From assembly GCA_020442635.1 (NCBI GenBank), contig JAGRJR010000002.1, positions 1 to 64,000 of the forward strand: a stretch of DNA of 64,000 nt, in the 5' to 3' direction. This document shows positions 1 through 36,514 of this stretch, in pieces (the first letter of the stretch is position 1; every line of letters starts with the position of its first letter). The position numbers and the translations under genes are program-made. The notes beneath the pieces were generated by a model. The model was given only the letters and a program-made list of their open reading frames with translations, was not told where the DNA came from and ran no database searches. Source of the DNA: Lysobacterales bacterium (GTDB lineage: Bacteria > Pseudomonadota > Gammaproteobacteria > Xanthomonadales > Marinicellaceae).

Positions 1-1118
1 ATGACTTTACCGCCAACAATGATCGTGATCGCAGTCATCTGACTCAAGAGTTTAGATTGATATCCGATGAAAGCAATCGGATTTTCAATGACTCAACGGA
101 TTGGCTGGCTGGTATTTATTTTTCCAGACTCGATGAAGACAATGACATCGATGAGTTTTATAACGATGAAGTCTATCGCCAACTTGACAGCGAATTTTCC
201 GCGCGCAATTTAGCTATTTTTACTCAATTAGACACTCGCCTCAGTACAGAAACGGTACTAACGACTGGTCTGCGCTTTGAACAAAGAAGCAGTGATTATC
301 GAGACAGCAATGGTTTGAACCTGTCTCCTAAAGATGATATGTTTGGTGGTCAAATATCAATCAATCATGCTCTGAATGCACAACAAAACATCTATGCCAC
401 CATTTCCAGGGGTTATAAAGCCGGCGGCTTTAATTTAGGTGTTTCACTGCCGGAAGACCGACGGGCCTATGACCCTGAATACCTGTTGAACTATGAAATC
501 GGCCTGAAAGCCCTGTTTCTGGATTATCGATTGAATTTAAATGTCAGTGCATTTTATTCACAACGCAAAGACATGCAAATCAGCACTTCAGTACAAGCCG
601 ACCCAACTGATCCATTGACCTTCATTTATCTGACCGCCAATGCCGCAGAAGGTCGCAACAAAGGCATTGAAATGGATTGGCTGTATCAAATCAGTCGCAA
701 CTGGTCATTTCACGGCGCCATAGGTTTATTGGATGCTACATTCAGTGATTATGTGACCGTAGATGCTAACTTCAATGGTCGCAAACAAGCCCATGCGCCT
801 GATTACACTTATAACCTTGGATTGACCTACCAGGGCGATACCGGTTGGTTTGCACGCGCTGATTTTAATGGCTCAGATGGCTTTTATTTTTCAGATTCAC
901 ATAATCAAAAAGCTGACAACAAAGATTTGTTGAACCTTAAATTAGGTTACCAAGCTGATACTTGGGCAATTTATGCCTGGGGTCGCAATGTGCTGGATGA
1001 AAGATATGCCGTGCGTGGCTTCTATTTTGGCCTGGAGCCACCCAACTATGAAAACAGCCTATACAAACACTTGGGTGATCCGCAACATTTCGGCTTAACC
1101 GCCAAGTTTGATTTTTAA
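1..1118 (+). CDS. TonB-dependent outer-membrane receptor, C-terminal part (5' end outside window)
   Basis: The frame is open from base 3 (codons read D-F-T-A-N-N) and runs 371 codons to TAA, so the start and plug domain lie upstream. What remains is beta-barrel: repeated aromatic-rich strands, a HLTQEFRLIS segment typical of TonB-dependent receptor barrels, and a terminal Phe (TAKFDF) as needed for outer-membrane insertion. Such receptors import scarce ligands with energy from TonB-ExbBD. The next three genes form a thiamin-binding, transport and kinase set in the same direction, so thiamin or a related pyrimidine is the likeliest ligand; this is inference from context. Identity as a TonB-dependent receptor is firm, substrate is not. 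Confidence 0.9.
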   Translation, partial: DFTANNDRDRSHLTQEFRLISDESNRIFNDSTDWLAGIYFSRLDEDNDIDEFYNDEVYRQLDSEFSARNLAIFTQLDTRLSTETVLTTGLRFEQRSSDYRDSNGLNLSPKDDMFGGQISINHALNAQQNIYATISRGYKAGGFNLGVSLPEDRRAYDPEYLLNYEIGLKALFLDYRLNLNVSAFYSQRKDMQISTSVQADPTDPLTFIYLTANAAEGRNKGIEMDWLYQISRNWSFHGAIGLLDATFSDYVTVDANFNGRKQAHAPDYTYNLGLTYQGDTGWFARADFNGSDGFYFSDSHNQKADNKDLLNLKLGYQADTWAIYAWGRNVLDERYAVRGFYFGLEPPNYENSLYKHLGDPQHFGLTAKFDF

Positions 1119-29257: not shown

Positions 29258-30640
29258 TCAAACAAAGAATAGACTCAATATACCTACTGTCACAACCGTA
29301 ATTGATACCGGGATGACCAACGACACCATAAATATGTCTTTATAGGACTGTTTGTGTGACAGACCACAAATAGTCAATAGGGTAATCACCGCCCCATTAT
29401 GTGGTAAGGAATCGAAACCACCTGAGGCCATAGATGCTAAACGATGCATCCACTCAGGGTTGATGCTGAACTGTTCTGCCAATTGTGCATAGGTTGAACC
29501 CAAAGCCTCCAAAGCAATGGTTAGACCTCCAGATGCTGAACCGGTAATTCCGGCCAACACATTCACCGCCAATACTTCAGAAATCAATGGATTACCTGGT
29601 GAGACATTGATGACTGCATCTTTTACCAACAAAAAAGCGCCTAATGAAGCGATCGTTCCACCATAGCCGACTTCCGAAGCAGTATTAAAAGTCGGGAGCA
29701 TGGAACCCATGGCACCTTTAGTCATGGTACCGTTCACATCGGTAAATTTGGACCAGCTAAACATAATCACAGTTCCCACTGCTAGAATCAGTGCCATAAT
29801 CATGGACCAAATAGATTTGACCTTGTTGACGTCCATTTGACCAAATTTATCACTGGCCAAATAACCCGTATCCCAACTTGGAATCCACATTTTCTGGAAC
29901 AGGAAGTTAGCCAATACTACCACCACAATTGGTAGCAAGGCTACCCACAAACTGGGCAGATGATGATCCGCCATAATCACTGGTTCATTGGTGTGATTCT
30001 CGCCATAACCTTCTGCTTGATATTTTTTGATGCGCAAATTAATCCACCATAGTCCACCAAACATCATGGTAAAACCTGCACACAACCCAACCACCGGAGC
30101 AGCATACATATCGGTACCAAAATAACTGGCTGGAATGATGTTGTGAATTTGAGACGTTCCTGGCAAACAGGTCATAGTGAAAGTAAACGCACCCAATGCA
30201 ATGGTCGCAGGGATGAAACGTTTGGGTAAGTTACCTTCCTTGAATAATGCAGCGGCCAGTGGATAAACCGCAAATGCCACCACAAACACAGAAACCCCAC
30301 CATAGGTTAATAATCCGCAAGCCGTTACAATGGCTAAACTGGCATGCTTAATACCCAGCTTATTGATTATTGACTTAGCAATGACCATGGCCGAACCTGA
30401 GTCTTCCATCAGTTTGCCAAAAATAGCACCCAGTAAAAATATGGGGAAATATTTAATTGCAAATGAACCCATTTTTGTCATGAATATTTGCGTGTAAATG
30501 CCCAGCATCTGTGAGCCTTCACCAGCAAAGACCACAGCCAACATCGCCAGCACCGGTGCCAGAATTATCACACTGATGCCTCGGTATGCCAAATACATCA
30601 ACAAACCTAATGACAATAAAATTCCAATCACTCCTTCCAT
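29258..30640 (-). CDS. GntP-family permease, probable 3-hydroxybutyrate uptake
   Basis: A 460-residue inner-membrane transporter with about 12 transmembrane segments. GntP-family marks are FLLGAIFGKLMEDSGSA near residue 70, LPGTSQIHNIIPA near 157, and ASGGFDSLPHNGAVITLL near 415. The family carries gluconate, and some members serve 3-hydroxybutyrate or other hydroxy acids. It is the last gene after the hydroxybutyrate dehydrogenase, with AGAGG ahead of the ATG. Hydroxybutyrate as substrate is inferred from the operon. Confidence 0.85.
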   Translation of the reverse strand: MEGVIGILLSLGLLMYLAYRGISVIILAPVLAMLAVVFAGEGSQMLGIYTQIFMTKMGSFAIKYFPIFLLGAIFGKLMEDSGSAMVIAKSIINKLGIKHASLAIVTACGLLTYGGVSVFVVAFAVYPLAAALFKEGNLPKRFIPATIALGAFTFTMTCLPGTSQIHNIIPASYFGTDMYAAPVVGLCAGFTMMFGGLWWINLRIKKYQAEGYGENHTNEPVIMADHHLPSLWVALLPIVVVVLANFLFQKMWIPSWDTGYLASDKFGQMDVNKVKSIWSMIMALILAVGTVIMFSWSKFTDVNGTMTKGAMGSMLPTFNTASEVGYGGTIASLGAFLLVKDAVINVSPGNPLISEVLAVNVLAGITGSASGGLTIALEALGSTYAQLAEQFSINPEWMHRLASMASGGFDSLPHNGAVITLLTICGLSHKQSYKDIFMVSLVIPVSITVVTVGILSLFFV

Positions 30641-30695
30641 AAATCGCCTCTGATTACCTGTTTATAATTTTTGATATTGACATATTCATGCAATA

Positions 30696-31445
30696 TCAGT
30701 GTGCCGTCCAACCACCATCTAATACAAAGGCTTGCGCCGTGATATTTTTGGCATAAGGCCCAATCAAAAATTCAACCGTACCTGCCAATTCCAAAATCTC
30801 TATAAACTGTTTTTTTGGCATGTTTTTCAACATGATTTTGTCAATGACTTCAGCTTCTGATATTTGATGGACTTCGGCTTGTTGTTTAATTTGGTTGCGT
30901 ACCATGTCAGTATCAACATAACCTGGGCAAACAGTATTGATGGTGATGTCCGAAGCTGCCACTTCTAAGGCAACAGTTTTAGCCAAACCAATTAACCCGT
31001 GTTTGGCTGAAACATACGCACTCTTATAAGCCGATGCAACCAAAGAATGCACCGAGCCAATATTGATGATTCTGCCAAAGTTATTTTGTTTCATTGAACG
31101 CAAAACTGCTCTGGTTGTCATGGCTGGACCAACCAGCATGACATCAATCAATTGCTGCCATTTTTCTGCAGGAAAATCTTCAATTTTGCTGACATATTGA
31201 ATACCTGCATTGTTAATCAAAATATCAATTGACTGCTCAGACAAAGCTTGCAAATGTGCTTCATTGGTTACATCAAACACTTGCGCTTCGACTTGAAAAC
31301 CCTGCTTACTCATCTTCTCTTGTGTTTGCTTAACCCTTGATTCTGAAAAGTCGCTGATAATCACTTTATGGTCTTTTGCCAGATGTTTAGCTATCCCTTC
31401 ACCAATACCACTACTGGCACCGGTAATAAATACTTTCTTTTTCAT
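30696..31445 (-). CDS. bdhA: D-3-hydroxybutyrate dehydrogenase
   Basis: A 249-residue short-chain dehydrogenase oxidising 3-hydroxybutyrate to acetoacetate with NAD. The cofactor loop TGASSGIGEGIA is at residue 9, NNAG near 79, catalytic Ser in IGSVHSLVAS near 134, Tyr-x3-Lys in SAYVSAKHG near 148, and CPGYVDTDMV near 180. The C-terminal FVLDGGWTAH is typical of hydroxybutyrate dehydrogenases. It overlaps the oligomer hydrolase stop by 4 nt (ATGA). Stereospecificity is not visible. Confidence 0.9.
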   Translation of the reverse strand: MKKKVFITGASSGIGEGIAKHLAKDHKVIISDFSESRVKQTQEKMSKQGFQVEAQVFDVTNEAHLQALSEQSIDILINNAGIQYVSKIEDFPAEKWQQLIDVMLVGPAMTTRAVLRSMKQNNFGRIINIGSVHSLVASAYKSAYVSAKHGLIGLAKTVALEVAASDITINTVCPGYVDTDMVRNQIKQQAEVHQISEAEVIDKIMLKNMPKKQFIEILELAGTVEFLIGPYAKNITAQAFVLDGGWTAH

Positions 31446-33379
31446 TGCAGCACCAATTTATTTTTTACCACATTAATTGGATGATCCGGTGTTTTTGAAA
31501 TGGCTGGAATGTGTACCTCTGACAAATTGACCACTTCACCATCATTTCCTCTCGGACTGGTCTTAACCACCTGACTAGGCGCAAGCGCTGAGCCTGTACG
31601 CAAGTGAGCCAACATCATATCCATCGCTTGCTCAAAATAAGGATGCATGGGCACAAATTTTTCCTGAAATCCAGGATAGGCCAGAAATGCATCAAAATGT
31701 TGAACATGTTCAACTTCATAATAACGCATTAATTCATTTGGGCTTTCGCTGCTCTGGTTGCGATGGTAATAGGCACGACTGGAATGATTGATGGCGACGG
31801 TGCCATCTGCTTGACCATGCAATATAAGTGTGGGTAAGCTGTTAAGCTTTGGTTTGGCTATAATATTTTTTATTGCCAAAAGCATGTCATCAGATTGGCT
31901 GAGTTCAAAAAAACACAATTGAGACTCCAGACCATAAGCTGGTGCCAAAATCATACGTGATTGCACAACATTATCTTTATTGCTATAAGCCAATTCAACA
32001 CCATTTCCCGGAGCTATACCATTGGATAGAGCAAACATGCCTTGTTGTTCTCTGGTAGTTAACTCTCTTGGTTGCCCTGTGGGAGAGAAGGCACTCATGG
32101 CCGAATGGCAAAGATTGTCCTTAGCCGTTTTTTGTAGATAGCTGTTGCTGTAAGTGTGATTAATCGCCGCCCACATACCCGCCAATGTGTTGATTTGGGC
32201 TAATTCAAGCGCAGCTGGTTCTATCATTTGCTGTTGGATTTTAGACAGCGCATCTGCGGCCTGTTCTTCAACAGTATTTCCATTCAACAACCCTACTTCA
32301 ACCAAAGCCTGACAGCGTTGTACCAACAAAGGCTGAATCAGACCAGTATTTAACTTGAATGGGGCTGTAGATAAGGAAGCATCTAAAGCAGCACATGGTT
32401 CATAGAGGCTTAACCAAGTTGACAGCTCAAGCAATGCTTTGGTCTGTACATCAAATACTTTTCCATCCTGTTTTAGCTGATATGCATGTTGGAGATTGAG
32501 TTGAGGTTCAGCGGCAACCACCCCATCAATCACACCGTGCGTGTCCAGCTCAGCGGCTCGAAGTACCGCACCGCCACCATTGGAGAGACTAGCGGCAATC
32601 ACAAGCACATCCTTCCTTTCAATTTTTTTTTCAGCTTCCAAAATAGCCAATCCGTAGTTGGCAGCATCCAAAACAAATTCACCCCAATAGCGTTCTGGGT
32701 TGTCTTGGGAGTATGGGTGCTTTTGCACCACATGAAGTGGGCTAGGTGAGCTCAAGCCATTACTTGAAAGTAATTCATTGGCAGCTGTTTTCTCTGTAAG
32801 TACGCCATCTATTTGATAGCCATGGTAGTCGCTTAAGGCAATTTCTGTCCCAGTTCCTTTATCGGTGTAAACCACGGCACAACCATTTTGTAATGCCCAG
32901 ACACCACTGGTTCCAACAGCACCTAGAACATTGCGAGATCCACTTGACGGTGCCACCACCAAACAAGGTTGTTGCAATTGCATACCATCAGGTATTTGCA
33001 CTACAACTGTATGCATTGCACCGGACTTAATGGCTTTTTGTTCCCAATATTCATAACCTGCAATCGGTTGCTGTCCGTGGGTGATGCCATGCAAATGACC
33101 ATATCCACCACTTTCAGTTAGGTCATTCAAAGCCTTAAATTGATGATAGTAACTGGCTTGACGCAGTTCTTTGGCCGTCGGATTTTCAGACAACACAGGT
33201 GGAGATCCTTGCAACCCGGACAAGCCCAGGCCTGCAGTCAATAAATCATCATTCACTGCATCGTAATACACTTTTTTTTGATATTCCGGTTGTGGATCAT
33301 TTGGCACTGTTTTGTTTTTTTCAGTACCACAAGACATTAAGAAACCACTCAAACCTATCAATAAAATACCTTTGTTCAT
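31442..33379 (-). CDS. 3-hydroxybutyrate oligomer hydrolase, lipoprotein
   Basis: A 645-residue serine hydrolase of the D-3-hydroxybutyrate oligomer hydrolase family (PF10605). The N-terminus MNKGILLIGLSGFLMSC is a lipoprotein signal with acceptor Cys17, so the enzyme is anchored in the envelope. The nucleophile loop IAASLSNGGGAVLRAAE has Ser near residue 266. Asp and His partners are likely in LILHGQADGTVAINHSS and VEHVQHFDAF. ATG 33379 is chosen because GAGG precedes it; an open frame 111 nt longer lacks the signal. Releases monomers from short polyester chains. Next to a TonB-dependent receptor gene upstream. Confidence 0.9.
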   Translation of the reverse strand: MNKGILLIGLSGFLMSCGTEKNKTVPNDPQPEYQKKVYYDAVNDDLLTAGLGLSGLQGSPPVLSENPTAKELRQASYYHQFKALNDLTESGGYGHLHGITHGQQPIAGYEYWEQKAIKSGAMHTVVVQIPDGMQLQQPCLVVAPSSGSRNVLGAVGTSGVWALQNGCAVVYTDKGTGTEIALSDYHGYQIDGVLTEKTAANELLSSNGLSSPSPLHVVQKHPYSQDNPERYWGEFVLDAANYGLAILEAEKKIERKDVLVIAASLSNGGGAVLRAAELDTHGVIDGVVAAEPQLNLQHAYQLKQDGKVFDVQTKALLELSTWLSLYEPCAALDASLSTAPFKLNTGLIQPLLVQRCQALVEVGLLNGNTVEEQAADALSKIQQQMIEPAALELAQINTLAGMWAAINHTYSNSYLQKTAKDNLCHSAMSAFSPTGQPRELTTREQQGMFALSNGIAPGNGVELAYSNKDNVVQSRMILAPAYGLESQLCFFELSQSDDMLLAIKNIIAKPKLNSLPTLILHGQADGTVAINHSSRAYYHRNQSSESPNELMRYYEVEHVQHFDAFLAYPGFQEKFVPMHPYFEQAMDMMLAHLRTGSALAPSQVVKTSPRGNDGEVVNLSEVHIPAISKTPDHPINVVKNKLVLQ

Positions 33380-33490
33380 GTTGGATGACCTCAATGGATG
33401 CTTGACATAAAACCACCGTTTTGTAGTTTTACAATATACAGATTGATTAGCACCACGGAGTCGTTGAAACCGTGGTGTTAAAACCCTCAA

Positions 33491-35713
33491 TTAAAAGCGA
33501 TAATTCAAAGCAGCATACCAGATTCTTGGATCACCGTAGTAGGCTGTTTGGATATTACCAACACTAGAAAATTCTTGCGCATCTACTTTGTAAACTTCAT
33601 CAGTTAAGTTTTTACCACCTATAGTTAATGACCAGGCTGGATTTGCAAAATCATAAACCGCGTAGGCATTGAATAACCAATAATCATCCTGAGTTAGTGA
33701 CTCTTGATTATCAACAGACAGATACATGTCATCCGTATAGTTACCATTTAAACCAATTCGTAAAATAGCGCCACCATCCAGGTAAAAGGCATGGTTAAAT
33801 CCTAATCTGAAAGTCCACTCTGGAGAAAATGGTGGGATGTCATCTGAACGATCCAGGTCAGGCTGTCTGAAATCGAAGAATTTTTTGTAATCAGCATCTA
33901 GATATCCCAAAGAACTATAAACAGTTGTCGATGCACTGAGTAACCAAGTTAATTCCAATTCCGCTCCAGAAATATCAAGTTCTGCTGCATTGATAACTGG
34001 AAAACTTGAAATATCTTCAGCAACCCTGGCCTGAAAATCTTCATAATCAGAGGTAAAAACCGCATAGTTTAATCTCAAACGATTGTCCATAAATTGCGAC
34101 TTGCCACCCACCTCATAGGTCCAGACTGTTTCTGGGTCAAATGAACTGACATCTGATGCGGCATTCGCTCGGCCATTAAAGCCACCAGACTTAAAACCTT
34201 TGGAAGCACTGGCATACATCATACTGCTGTCACTGATTTGATAATCTACACTCACCATAGGTGTTACACTGTCCCAACTGTCCGAATCATCAAAGGCAAA
34301 CGTGCCTTCTAAAAAAGCTGCATTTCCCGAGTATGTCGTTGTGGTTCGCGCGTAATCTTTTTCATCTTTGCTGTACCGTATACCAGCTGTGAGTCCCCAA
34401 TGGTCATTCAGTACCCAGTTGCCCTGCGCAAAAACAGCATAACTGGTGGTTTCTAAATCATCATCAATCGTTCGTAAAAATTCAAGAGGTTCACCACTTA
34501 ACTGTAAAAAGTCATCCGCATAAGCTTCCTGATGCGACGGAACATCTTCCTTCATATAATACAACCCCATAACCCCATTGAAGCCATCATTATTATCAAA
34601 CAAGAATTGAAACTCCTGACTGAACTGCTTTTGATTCACGCCAACAAACACATCGCCCAATTCAAATTCAGTGGCATCGATGTCAATGAATGAGTCTGAA
34701 TCTAACTCTCTATGAGCTGTGATAGATTTAAAGTCCCAGTTATCATTGAAGTTGTAATTCAGAGTAAAGCTGGCACCAAGATGTTGTAACTCCTGATTTT
34801 CATCATCAGTGAATGAGGATCTACCGGTAAAATCATATTCACCCGTATCTGGTAAACGCAACAAAACTGGCGTGGTTAAATCGGCAAAATCCAAAGCAAT
34901 TAATGGTGACTCTGACCGACCCAGTGTCAAGGCGTTTTCCTGATCAGTATAGTCCAAAGAAAAATTCCAAGACAGTTGTTCATTTAATTGAGAATTGACT
35001 AAAAACCTTAGTGAGGTATTGTCTCTGTCATTGTAATGTTGGCCAGTCAGAGAATCCTTCACAAAACCGTTGTCTAATCTATATAAAGCAGAGACACTGG
35101 CATTGGTACGTTCTGTCAAAGCACCTTTGAAGTAAGTAGAGGTTGAAAGCGCTCCATAATCTCCAGCCATTATTCTGACTTCACCAGCGGTTTCTCCGTC
35201 TGGTTGTCTGGTAATGACGTTAACCGCACCTCCTATGGTGTTCTTACCATATAAAGTACCCTGTGGCCCACGTAATACCTCAATGCGCTCTACATCATGC
35301 ATGCTCAGTAAGGCACCTTGAATACGCGACATATAGACACCATCGACATAAACGCCCACACCCGGATCGAATGTTTGTAAGGCATCAGGCTGTCCAATAC
35401 CACGAATATAAATATTGGCACTACTGGCTGAACCACGTCCTTGTACCAAATTCATATTAGGTACCGCTCCTTTCAATGAATCTAAATTTTCCGCTTGAGC
35501 ATCTTCTAAATCTTCCCTGCTGAATGAAGTAACCGCCAATGGCACATCCTGCATGGACTCTTTGACTCGTCGAGCGGTTACCGTAACTTCATCTAAAGCC
35601 AATACTTCAGCCTCAGCATCCTCCTGAGCCATCACATCTGTCATTGAACATGCCACCATGCCTGACACCAGCAAAGCCTGCTGGATGGCAGTGAATAATC
35701 TATTTTTAAACAT
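33491..35713 (-). CDS. TonB-dependent receptor of the hydroxybutyrate operon
   Basis: A complete 740-residue receptor: signal peptide about 1-29, TonB box LDEVTVTARR near residue 40, plug domain to about 190 (IYIRGIGQP, VYVDGVYMSR, IEVLRGPQGTLYGKN), then a beta-barrel ending in NYRF with terminal Phe. It is the first gene of receptor-hydrolase-dehydrogenase-permease and is divergent from a TetR regulator. The obvious cargo is hydroxybutyrate oligomers; this has not been read from sequence and is inference. A 111-bp gap separates it from the hydrolase. Confidence 0.92.
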   Translation of the reverse strand: MFKNRLFTAIQQALLVSGMVACSMTDVMAQEDAEAEVLALDEVTVTARRVKESMQDVPLAVTSFSREDLEDAQAENLDSLKGAVPNMNLVQGRGSASSANIYIRGIGQPDALQTFDPGVGVYVDGVYMSRIQGALLSMHDVERIEVLRGPQGTLYGKNTIGGAVNVITRQPDGETAGEVRIMAGDYGALSTSTYFKGALTERTNASVSALYRLDNGFVKDSLTGQHYNDRDNTSLRFLVNSQLNEQLSWNFSLDYTDQENALTLGRSESPLIALDFADLTTPVLLRLPDTGEYDFTGRSSFTDDENQELQHLGASFTLNYNFNDNWDFKSITAHRELDSDSFIDIDATEFELGDVFVGVNQKQFSQEFQFLFDNNDGFNGVMGLYYMKEDVPSHQEAYADDFLQLSGEPLEFLRTIDDDLETTSYAVFAQGNWVLNDHWGLTAGIRYSKDEKDYARTTTTYSGNAAFLEGTFAFDDSDSWDSVTPMVSVDYQISDSSMMYASASKGFKSGGFNGRANAASDVSSFDPETVWTYEVGGKSQFMDNRLRLNYAVFTSDYEDFQARVAEDISSFPVINAAELDISGAELELTWLLSASTTVYSSLGYLDADYKKFFDFRQPDLDRSDDIPPFSPEWTFRLGFNHAFYLDGGAILRIGLNGNYTDDMYLSVDNQESLTQDDYWLFNAYAVYDFANPAWSLTIGGKNLTDEVYKVDAQEFSSVGNIQTAYYGDPRIWYAALNYRF

Positions 35714-35737
35714 TGTTTGTCCCCGTAGTTAAAAATT

Positions 35738-35800
35738 TGTTTAAGATGATACATTACATGTTTAATATTTTTCAACAATTGTTTAAATATTGTAGATTTA
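35738..35800. promoter_or_regulatory. TetR operator region: 21-bp phased repeats and a palindrome
   Basis: TGTTTAA occurs at 35738, 35759 and 35780, exactly 21 bp apart (two helical turns). The third lies in TTCAACAATTGTTTAA (35771-35786), a 16-bp dyad with one mismatched pair. It sits between the divergent receptor and TetR genes, the right place for TetR-type operators controlling both. Confidence 0.6.
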
Positions 35801-35845
35801 ATTTTTTCAAGAGCATGCTATGATAGTCATACAATTAATATAATA

Positions 35846-36514
35846 ATGCGAAACAATGCGATGACTACCAAGAAGAAAACCAAGGATTTAATATTGGATG
35901 CCGCTGAAGAATTATTTGCTATTCGGGGTTTTTACGGAGTGTCAATTCGTCAAATAACCACCAAAGCAGAAGTGGATCCCGCTTTAGCCAGTTATCATTT
36001 TGGCAAAAAAAAGGACATTTTCGATGCAGTCATGTTGCGACGTGCAGAAATACTTAATCGTGAAAGAATCCAGATGCTGGACGATTGCATCAGGCGCGCC
36101 AAACCCAATCCTGCCCCATTACATGAAATTATTGATGCGTTTACCCATGCTCTGTTGAACCGCAGTAATAAAGGTGGCAAAGGCTGGAGAAGTTATTTTG
36201 CCATCATAGCTCAAATCAACAACCATCCAGAATTGGGAGGAATCATTATGAGTCAATATTTTGATCCTCTGGCAAAAAAATTCCTACAAGCCATTCATGC
36301 CAATATGCCTGAAGCCAATGACGAAGATTTGTACTGGTGTTATCATTTCTTGTCAGGCGCGCTGACCTTAACTTTTTCGGGAACAGAGCGCATCAGCAAA
36401 TTATCTGATGGCTTATGCCCCTCAAATGATTTGGATGCCGTTCATGACCGACTGGTTCCATTTATTACCGCCGGCTTCAAAGCCTTTATGAATCCCTTTA
36501 CAATAGGTCGTTAA
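35846..36514 (+). CDS. TetR-family repressor of the hydroxybutyrate operon
   Basis: A 222-residue TetR protein. The HTH is RGFYGVSIRQITTKAEVDPALASYHFGKKKD (recognition helix around residues 44-56; broken here: VSIRQITTKAEV then PALASYHF). The C-terminal ligand domain is unremarkable (WRSYFAIIAQ, WCYHFLSGALTLTF). ATG 35846 or ATG 35861 are possible. It is divergent from the TonB-dependent receptor across 132 bp with candidate operators. Hydroxybutyrate or an acyl derivative as inducer is a guess. Confidence 0.88.
   Translation: MRNNAMTTKKKTKDLILDAAEELFAIRGFYGVSIRQITTKAEVDPALASYHFGKKKDIFDAVMLRRAEILNRERIQMLDDCIRRAKPNPAPLHEIIDAFTHALLNRSNKGGKGWRSYFAIIAQINNHPELGGIIMSQYFDPLAKKFLQAIHANMPEANDEDLYWCYHFLSGALTLTFSGTERISKLSDGLCPSNDLDAVHDRLVPFITAGFKAFMNPFTIGR

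Follow-up and report, generated by a model that had tools for sequence, protein, structure and literature searches.

A substrate-induced locus for the uptake and use of exogenous fragments of poly(3-hydroxybutyrate) (PHB) is probably encoded at positions 29258–36514 of the 64,000-nucleotide stretch of DNA analysed here (the window), which comes from a genome of Marinicella (Lysobacterales, Gammaproteobacteria; assembly GCA_020442635.1; 3.54 Mb in 262 contigs, 95.7% complete). The locus comprises genes for a TonB-dependent receptor (TBDR), a predicted lipoprotein hydrolase of 3-hydroxybutyrate (3HB) oligomers, a D-3-hydroxybutyrate dehydrogenase (BDH), a GntP-type permease, and a TetR regulator. 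It is very likely that the locus is dedicated to exogenous 3HB oligomers and, judging from sequence comparisons, import of these oligomers by the receptor is probable. Ten of 16 Marinicella genomes carry the hydrolase and six do not; the receptor is found in exactly those 10 genomes, adjoining the hydrolase each time, and is absent (among the matches listed) from the other six. This grouping of genes is not due to chance. TetR is also present at the locus in all 10 genomes and BDH in nine, with the exception (L125) being cut by a contig end. The receptor, hydrolase, first catabolic enzyme, and local regulator are conserved together, as in a catabolic uptake locus.

In the proposed mechanism, 3HB oligomers set free by neighbouring organisms or by surface enzymes would be carried over the outer membrane by the receptor, powered by TonB-ExbBD, and would then be cleaved to R-3-hydroxybutyrate by the hydrolase, a lipoprotein anchored in the outer membrane. 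The GntP permease would take up the monomer, which BDH would convert to acetoacetate by oxidation. TetR would block the receptor operon via a TTCAACA-NN-TGTTKAA site over the -35 hexamer until bound by a 3HB-derived inducer. The steps that we infer are passage of oligomers through the receptor, action of the hydrolase on the periplasmic side, carriage of 3HB by GntP, binding of TetR to its site, and the identity of the inducer.

Gene content and predicted functions

The features of the locus are as follows (window positions).

29258–30640, minus strand: GntP-type permease, 460 amino acids (aa), PF02447; candidate inner-membrane 3-hydroxybutyrate carrier
30696–31445, minus strand: BDH, 249 aa, TIGR01963
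31442–33379, minus strand: 3HB-oligomer hydrolase, 645 aa, predicted lipoprotein (Cys17), PF10605
31442–31445, minus strand: ATGA overlap of hydrolase stop and BDH start, read from the sequence
33447–33481, minus strand: hairpin between the receptor and hydrolase genes, 12-nucleotide arms, no T-run
33491–35713, minus strand: TBDR, 740 aa, signal peptide, TonB-box-like EVTVTA, plug (PF07715) and barrel (PF00593)
35746–35775, minus strand: predicted sigma-70-like promoter of the receptor operon, TTGAAA-18-TATCAT
35771–35786, plus strand: candidate TetR operator TTCAACAATTGTTTAA, overlapping the -35 hexamer
35846–36514, plus strand (divergent): TetR regulator, 222 aa, PsrA-like C-terminal domain, PF00440 and PF17939

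All five genes are intact, and those on the minus strand are transcribed in the order TBDR, hydrolase, BDH, and GntP, with TetR divergent. An earlier note on the window had grouped these five genes at these positions, and each was confirmed by its coordinates and family profile, as were the ATGA overlap and the specificity that the note had ascribed to the hydrolase and BDH families.

By the curated cut-off, the hydrolase is a member of PF10605 (499.9 bits against a cut-off of 27; E = 1.5e-149; model positions 5–680 of 688), and hydrolysis of 3HB oligomers is its predicted activity. Its ATG start lies at 33379, and the product carries a lipobox-like LMSC. Across 20 homologues, Cys17 is nearly invariant, while Ser266, Asp525, and His561 are invariant and presumably form the catalytic triad. 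No sequence relative of the hydrolase was found among solved structures; the structure model is a confident alpha/beta-hydrolase (predicted local distance difference test score, 87.5) with weak similarity to the folds of feruloyl esterase, tannase, and MHETase. BDH scores 320.2 bits against its TIGR01963 cut-off of 307.05, and the 13 solved-structure matches listed for it (E ≤ 1e-40) are all hydroxybutyrate dehydrogenases. The receptor possesses both the plug and the beta-barrel domains of a TBDR, and the genome contains five copies of ExbD.

The permease has a genuine match to PF02447, though a weak one (32.5 bits; cut-off, 22.5), and its identity as a gluconate permease was rejected (TIGR00791, 34.8 against 292.75); a role as 3HB carrier is suggested by its position. 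The TetR regulator shares the TetR_C_30 domain with PsrA, yet it lies far under the PsrA cut-off (NF053516, 111.5 against 300) and has a single exact predicted site, and identity with PsrA was rejected.

Association of the receptor with hydroxybutyrate genes

The search was extended to 151 genomes of the order, with loci annotated by hidden Markov model searches of stop-to-stop frames; a limited number of receptor candidates was scored per genome, and receptor counts are therefore lower bounds. It returned 90 hydrolase places, at least about 160 receptor relatives, and 41 places with a strong match to an esterase resembling depolymerases. This esterase matches the PHB depolymerase of Talaromyces (Penicillium) funiculosus (2D80/2D81) over its full length (E = 6e-36); its Ser73, Asp160, and His194 do not vary among 19 homologues and align with the triad of the fungal enzyme, in which the Ser-to-Ala variant 2D81 identifies the nucleophile. 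A receptor relative lies within 6 kb of at least 36 of the 41 esterases and within 10 kb of at least 43 of the 90 hydrolases, where random placement would give 0.33 and 0.62, respectively. These expectations ignore shared ancestry, and hence the layouts seen in unlike lineages weigh more than the ratios.

Relatives were also picked by receptor similarity alone (at least 47% identity; 36 places in the same order). A hydrolase (22) or an esterase (6) lies within 17 kb of 28 of these, and the remaining eight are all beside GntP, several of them on short contigs. Receptor homologues sitting mostly beside genes for unrelated substrates, which the earlier note had named as the outcome that would tell against its proposal, were not seen in the receptor's own gammaproteobacterial clade. 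Its suggestion that the receptor might always stand next to a PF10605 hydrolase fails as worded, holding for 22 of the 36 places; a depolymerase homologue takes that position in six others.

Three layouts recur. In layout A (Marinicella), the receptor is followed by hydrolase and BDH, with or without GntP, and TetR is divergent. In layout B, found in several families (with named loci in Luteibacter, Dyella, and Lysobacter), GntP is divergent from the receptor, which is often followed by the esterase, then by a large kinase, a LuxR-type regulator, the hydrolase, and often BDH. Layout C contains no hydrolase; the receptor is accompanied by the esterase, an acyl-CoA ligase, mostly BDH, and in some cases TetR, and its carriers are family f8 (examples L100, L105, L110, and L112) and one locus from Marinicella's own family (L128). 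Across the order, GntP homologues are divergent from the receptor or beside it, and within Marinicella, GntP adjoins the locus in three genomes, including that of the window. In most Marinicella genomes, a conserved pair of open reading frames (about 342 and 205 aa) flanks BDH instead (L039, L041, L042, L044, L049, and L052). The kinase of layout B comprises around 1,100 residues with a transporter-like N terminus and is paired with the LuxR-type regulator at many loci (L115–L137); the pair resembles CrbS/CrbR of the acetate switch, and is apparently the regulator of PHB use.

In a FastTree phylogeny of 137 receptors, the window receptor falls within a clade of 39 gammaproteobacterial sequences with a local support of 92, rising to 100 when four alphaproteobacterial sequences (44%–45% identity) are added. 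Every one of the 39 has either hydroxybutyrate (HB) genes alongside (3HB-oligomer hydrolase, depolymerase homologue, or BDH) or GntP. The four alphaproteobacterial receptors have TetR, major facilitator superfamily (MFS), or acyl-CoA ligase neighbours. On the far side of the tree, a group of 76 sequences contains many layout B loci in addition to loci with MFS carriers, ATP-binding cassette (ABC) carriers, or a carboxylesterase. These neighbours make a strong case for specificity within the gammaproteobacterial clade to which the receptor belongs, a case that is not extendable to every relative of 30%–35% identity. Closer to the window, its receptor shares 80% identity with that of Marinicella litoralis and 72% with that of M. 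gelatinilytica. One further Marinicella genome (G103) contains two copies of the locus (L050 and L090), whose receptors are 81% and 69% identical to the window's.

Candidate operator and intergenic hairpin

The gap between TetR and the receptor contains TTCAACA-NN-TGTTtAA in all Marinicella genomes aligned, except in the second, divergent copy in G103 (L090). In the window, the sequence TTCAACANNTGTTKAA at 35771–35786 is the single mismatch-free occurrence in the 3.5 Mb genome, and it overlaps the best promoter-like -35 hexamer ahead of the receptor. Promoter-like sites are no commoner than chance in this region, and the receptor promoter is a prediction. Among the loci fetched, all exact copies of the operator are just upstream of a receptor, and the motif TTCAACA-NN-TGTTKAA recurs in TetR-receptor gaps of other genera and classes: the exact operator is common to L105 (layout C), L159 (Pseudomonadales, with TetR, receptor, and hydrolase), and L190 (Kordiimonas). 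A single genomic operator, positioned upstream of the receptor, points to TetR as a one-target repressor acting at this candidate site.

The position of the hairpin between the receptor and hydrolase genes recurs in Marinicella relatives, while its sequence differs; its z-score is -1.6 in the window and -2.4 to -4.6 in nine relatives. The hairpin perhaps sets a higher level of receptor than of enzyme. The second copy in G103 lacks both an exact operator and a strong intergenic hairpin.

Source of the substrate and alternative explanations

PhaC_N gave no match in the 16 Marinicella genomes. No depolymerase of family PF10503 or of the order's esterase type was matched in the same 16, the window's included (other depolymerase types were not searched). 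Since neither a PHB synthase nor a recognised depolymerase was found, the substrate is probably external, and it has most likely been cut beforehand by other organisms, unless the hydrolase is itself active on amorphous polymer. The earlier note had suggested that a depolymerase might be encoded elsewhere or supplied by others; the first option finds no support for the two types searched, and the second becomes the likelier. Calling the system complete, as the note did for its candidate, goes too far, since no means of activating acetoacetate was detected. Complete PHB degradation would call for this step as well as for a PHB depolymerase, of which neither PF10503 nor the order's type was detected. 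A FadD-like ligase may activate acetoacetate, as the acyl-CoA ligase of layout C would suggest.

Several observations weigh against a dedicated uptake and utilisation locus. For the acetoacetate step, no CoA transferase (PF01144) was found in 18 Marinicella genomes, and the best score for acetoacetyl-CoA synthetase (TIGR01217) in the window genome is 267 against a cut-off of 521. In most Marinicella genomes, GntP does not adjoin the locus, and short oligomers might cross porins without a receptor. The four alphaproteobacterial members of the receptor's clade have none of the tested HB genes nearby, and relatives of about 30%–35% identity in Alpha- and Betaproteobacteria are often beside MFS or ABC transporters. 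Outside the order, a receptor was found at one of 14 esterase places; the receptor is thus not needed for PHB use in general, and a class-wide link between depolymerase and receptor is not supported.

Other explanations were weighed against import of 3HB oligomers. The hydrolase could work on the outer face of the cell, with the receptor importing dimers or a helper molecule, or binding the polymer surface, rather than acting as a strict oligomer importer. Lipoproteins can be surface exposed, the predicted lipoprotein has no inner-membrane retention Asp at +2, and the PF10605 enzyme of Ralstonia pickettii is reportedly extracellular. However, the 104 Da monomer should cross porins, and a large receptor for it would therefore be of little benefit; moreover, the receptor has a depolymerase homologue beside it at loci that contain no oligomer hydrolase, and we regard an outer-face hydrolase of this kind as unlikely. 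A shade less probable still is that the locus has a broader range, in which 3HB would be one substrate among several hydroxyacid oligoesters or short acyl esters. Such breadth would suit the PsrA-like regulator, the acyl-CoA ligase neighbours in some lineages, the carboxylesterases next to distant relatives (L147 and L166), and the weak fold likeness of the hydrolase to feruloyl esterase, tannase, and MHETase, but the BDH and PF10605 families both take their names from 3HB, and the recurrent partner of the receptor is a homologue of a PHB depolymerase.

Far less credible is an iron-siderophore receptor that stands beside HB genes by chance. The nearest solved structures are indeed siderophore, heme, and colicin receptors, and the TonB siderophore receptor model TIGR01783 reaches 199.1 bits; this score is nonetheless below the cut-off of 223.5, adjacency to HB genes is kept across many genera, and the local regulator is TetR, or the kinase/LuxR pair in other lineages, rather than an iron regulator. 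Turnover of the cell's own stored PHB by the hydrolase and BDH is the most improbable of all and was rejected given the lack of PhaC in the 16 Marinicella genomes; the lipoprotein-like signal on the hydrolase and its tandem arrangement with an outer-membrane receptor also speak against it, even though PF10605 enzymes are tied to PHB turnover in Ralstonia and some PhaC-bearing genomes of the order have the hydrolase without a receptor nearby.

The locus also resembles a known type of gene arrangement. In the carbohydrate utilisation loci containing TBDRs (CUT loci) of Xanthomonas and in polysaccharide utilisation loci, a local regulator, a TBDR, a lipoprotein or periplasmic hydrolase, an inner-membrane carrier, and the first catabolic enzyme are found together. 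The window locus has the same gene set; it differs in that its predicted substrate is a polyester and not a glycan, SusD is lacking, and the enzymes are unrelated to the glycan families. Its PF10605 enzyme is placed in a receptor operon, in a genus where no PhaC was found, and the homologue of the Talaromyces funiculosus depolymerase that adjoins the receptor in other genomes was found neither in the window nor in Marinicella.

Bacteria commonly store PHB, and this polymer and poly(3-hydroxybutyrate-co-3-hydroxyvalerate) (PHBV) are both of importance as biodegradable polyesters. Extracellular depolymerases have been studied thoroughly; for passage of the oligomers over the outer membrane of Gram-negative bacteria, no characterised answer was found in the searchable literature. 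The earlier note knew of no characterised TBDR for HB oligomers, and our literature search, which missed most subscription journals, found none either, although there was an earlier prediction of a PHB receptor. In Alteromonas macleodii, the TonB-dependent transporter MASE_06600 was assigned PHB as substrate from the adjacent PHB depolymerase, and it was up by 1.59 log2 units under carbon limitation (PMC7190382). The idea of such a receptor is therefore not new, and the support for it here is much broader. Like MASE_06600, the window receptor is TonB-dependent and adjoins a gene for PHB use; unlike MASE_06600, which was predicted from neighbourhood alone, it is accompanied by an oligomer hydrolase and BDH, by no depolymerase, and by a candidate dedicated TetR operator. 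As a family that accompanies PHB-degrading genes across many genera, these receptors are direct, testable candidates for oligomer passage.

More tentatively, and with the odds somewhat short of even, the receptor family may be a dedicated importer of polyester oligomers and Marinicella a scavenger of PHB fragments from depolymerase producers. In seawater, an operational taxonomic unit (OTU) of M. litoralis accounted for 5.9% on PHBV film at 206 days and did not exceed 0.017% on any other plastic in the same table, and according to the authors, there was no previous description of it as degrading PHBV (PMC8637277). The locus is present in M. litoralis KMM 3900 (L139), whose genome gave no depolymerase match (PF10503 or the order's esterase type). 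A scavenger equipped with an importer and an oligomer hydrolase, and in which no depolymerase or PHB synthase was found, would explain both this specific presence on PHBV film and the missing depolymerase match; the Marinicella version of the locus suggests a cheater or cross-feeding niche on marine bioplastic.

Some minor observations concern related genes. In genomes of family f9 that contain a PHB synthase (G044, G094, G109, G124, G129, G134, G144, and G149), the hydrolase tends to occur without a listed receptor nearby, a pattern that suggests separate storage and scavenging roles and is confounded by kinship. The distant receptor relatives in Caulobacter and Microbulbifer (L147 and L166) adjoin genes of the alpha/beta-hydrolase or carboxylesterase families and are possibly receptors for other esters. 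Finally, a second, truncated TBDR with 30% identity is located at the start of the contig (window positions 1–1031, L002).

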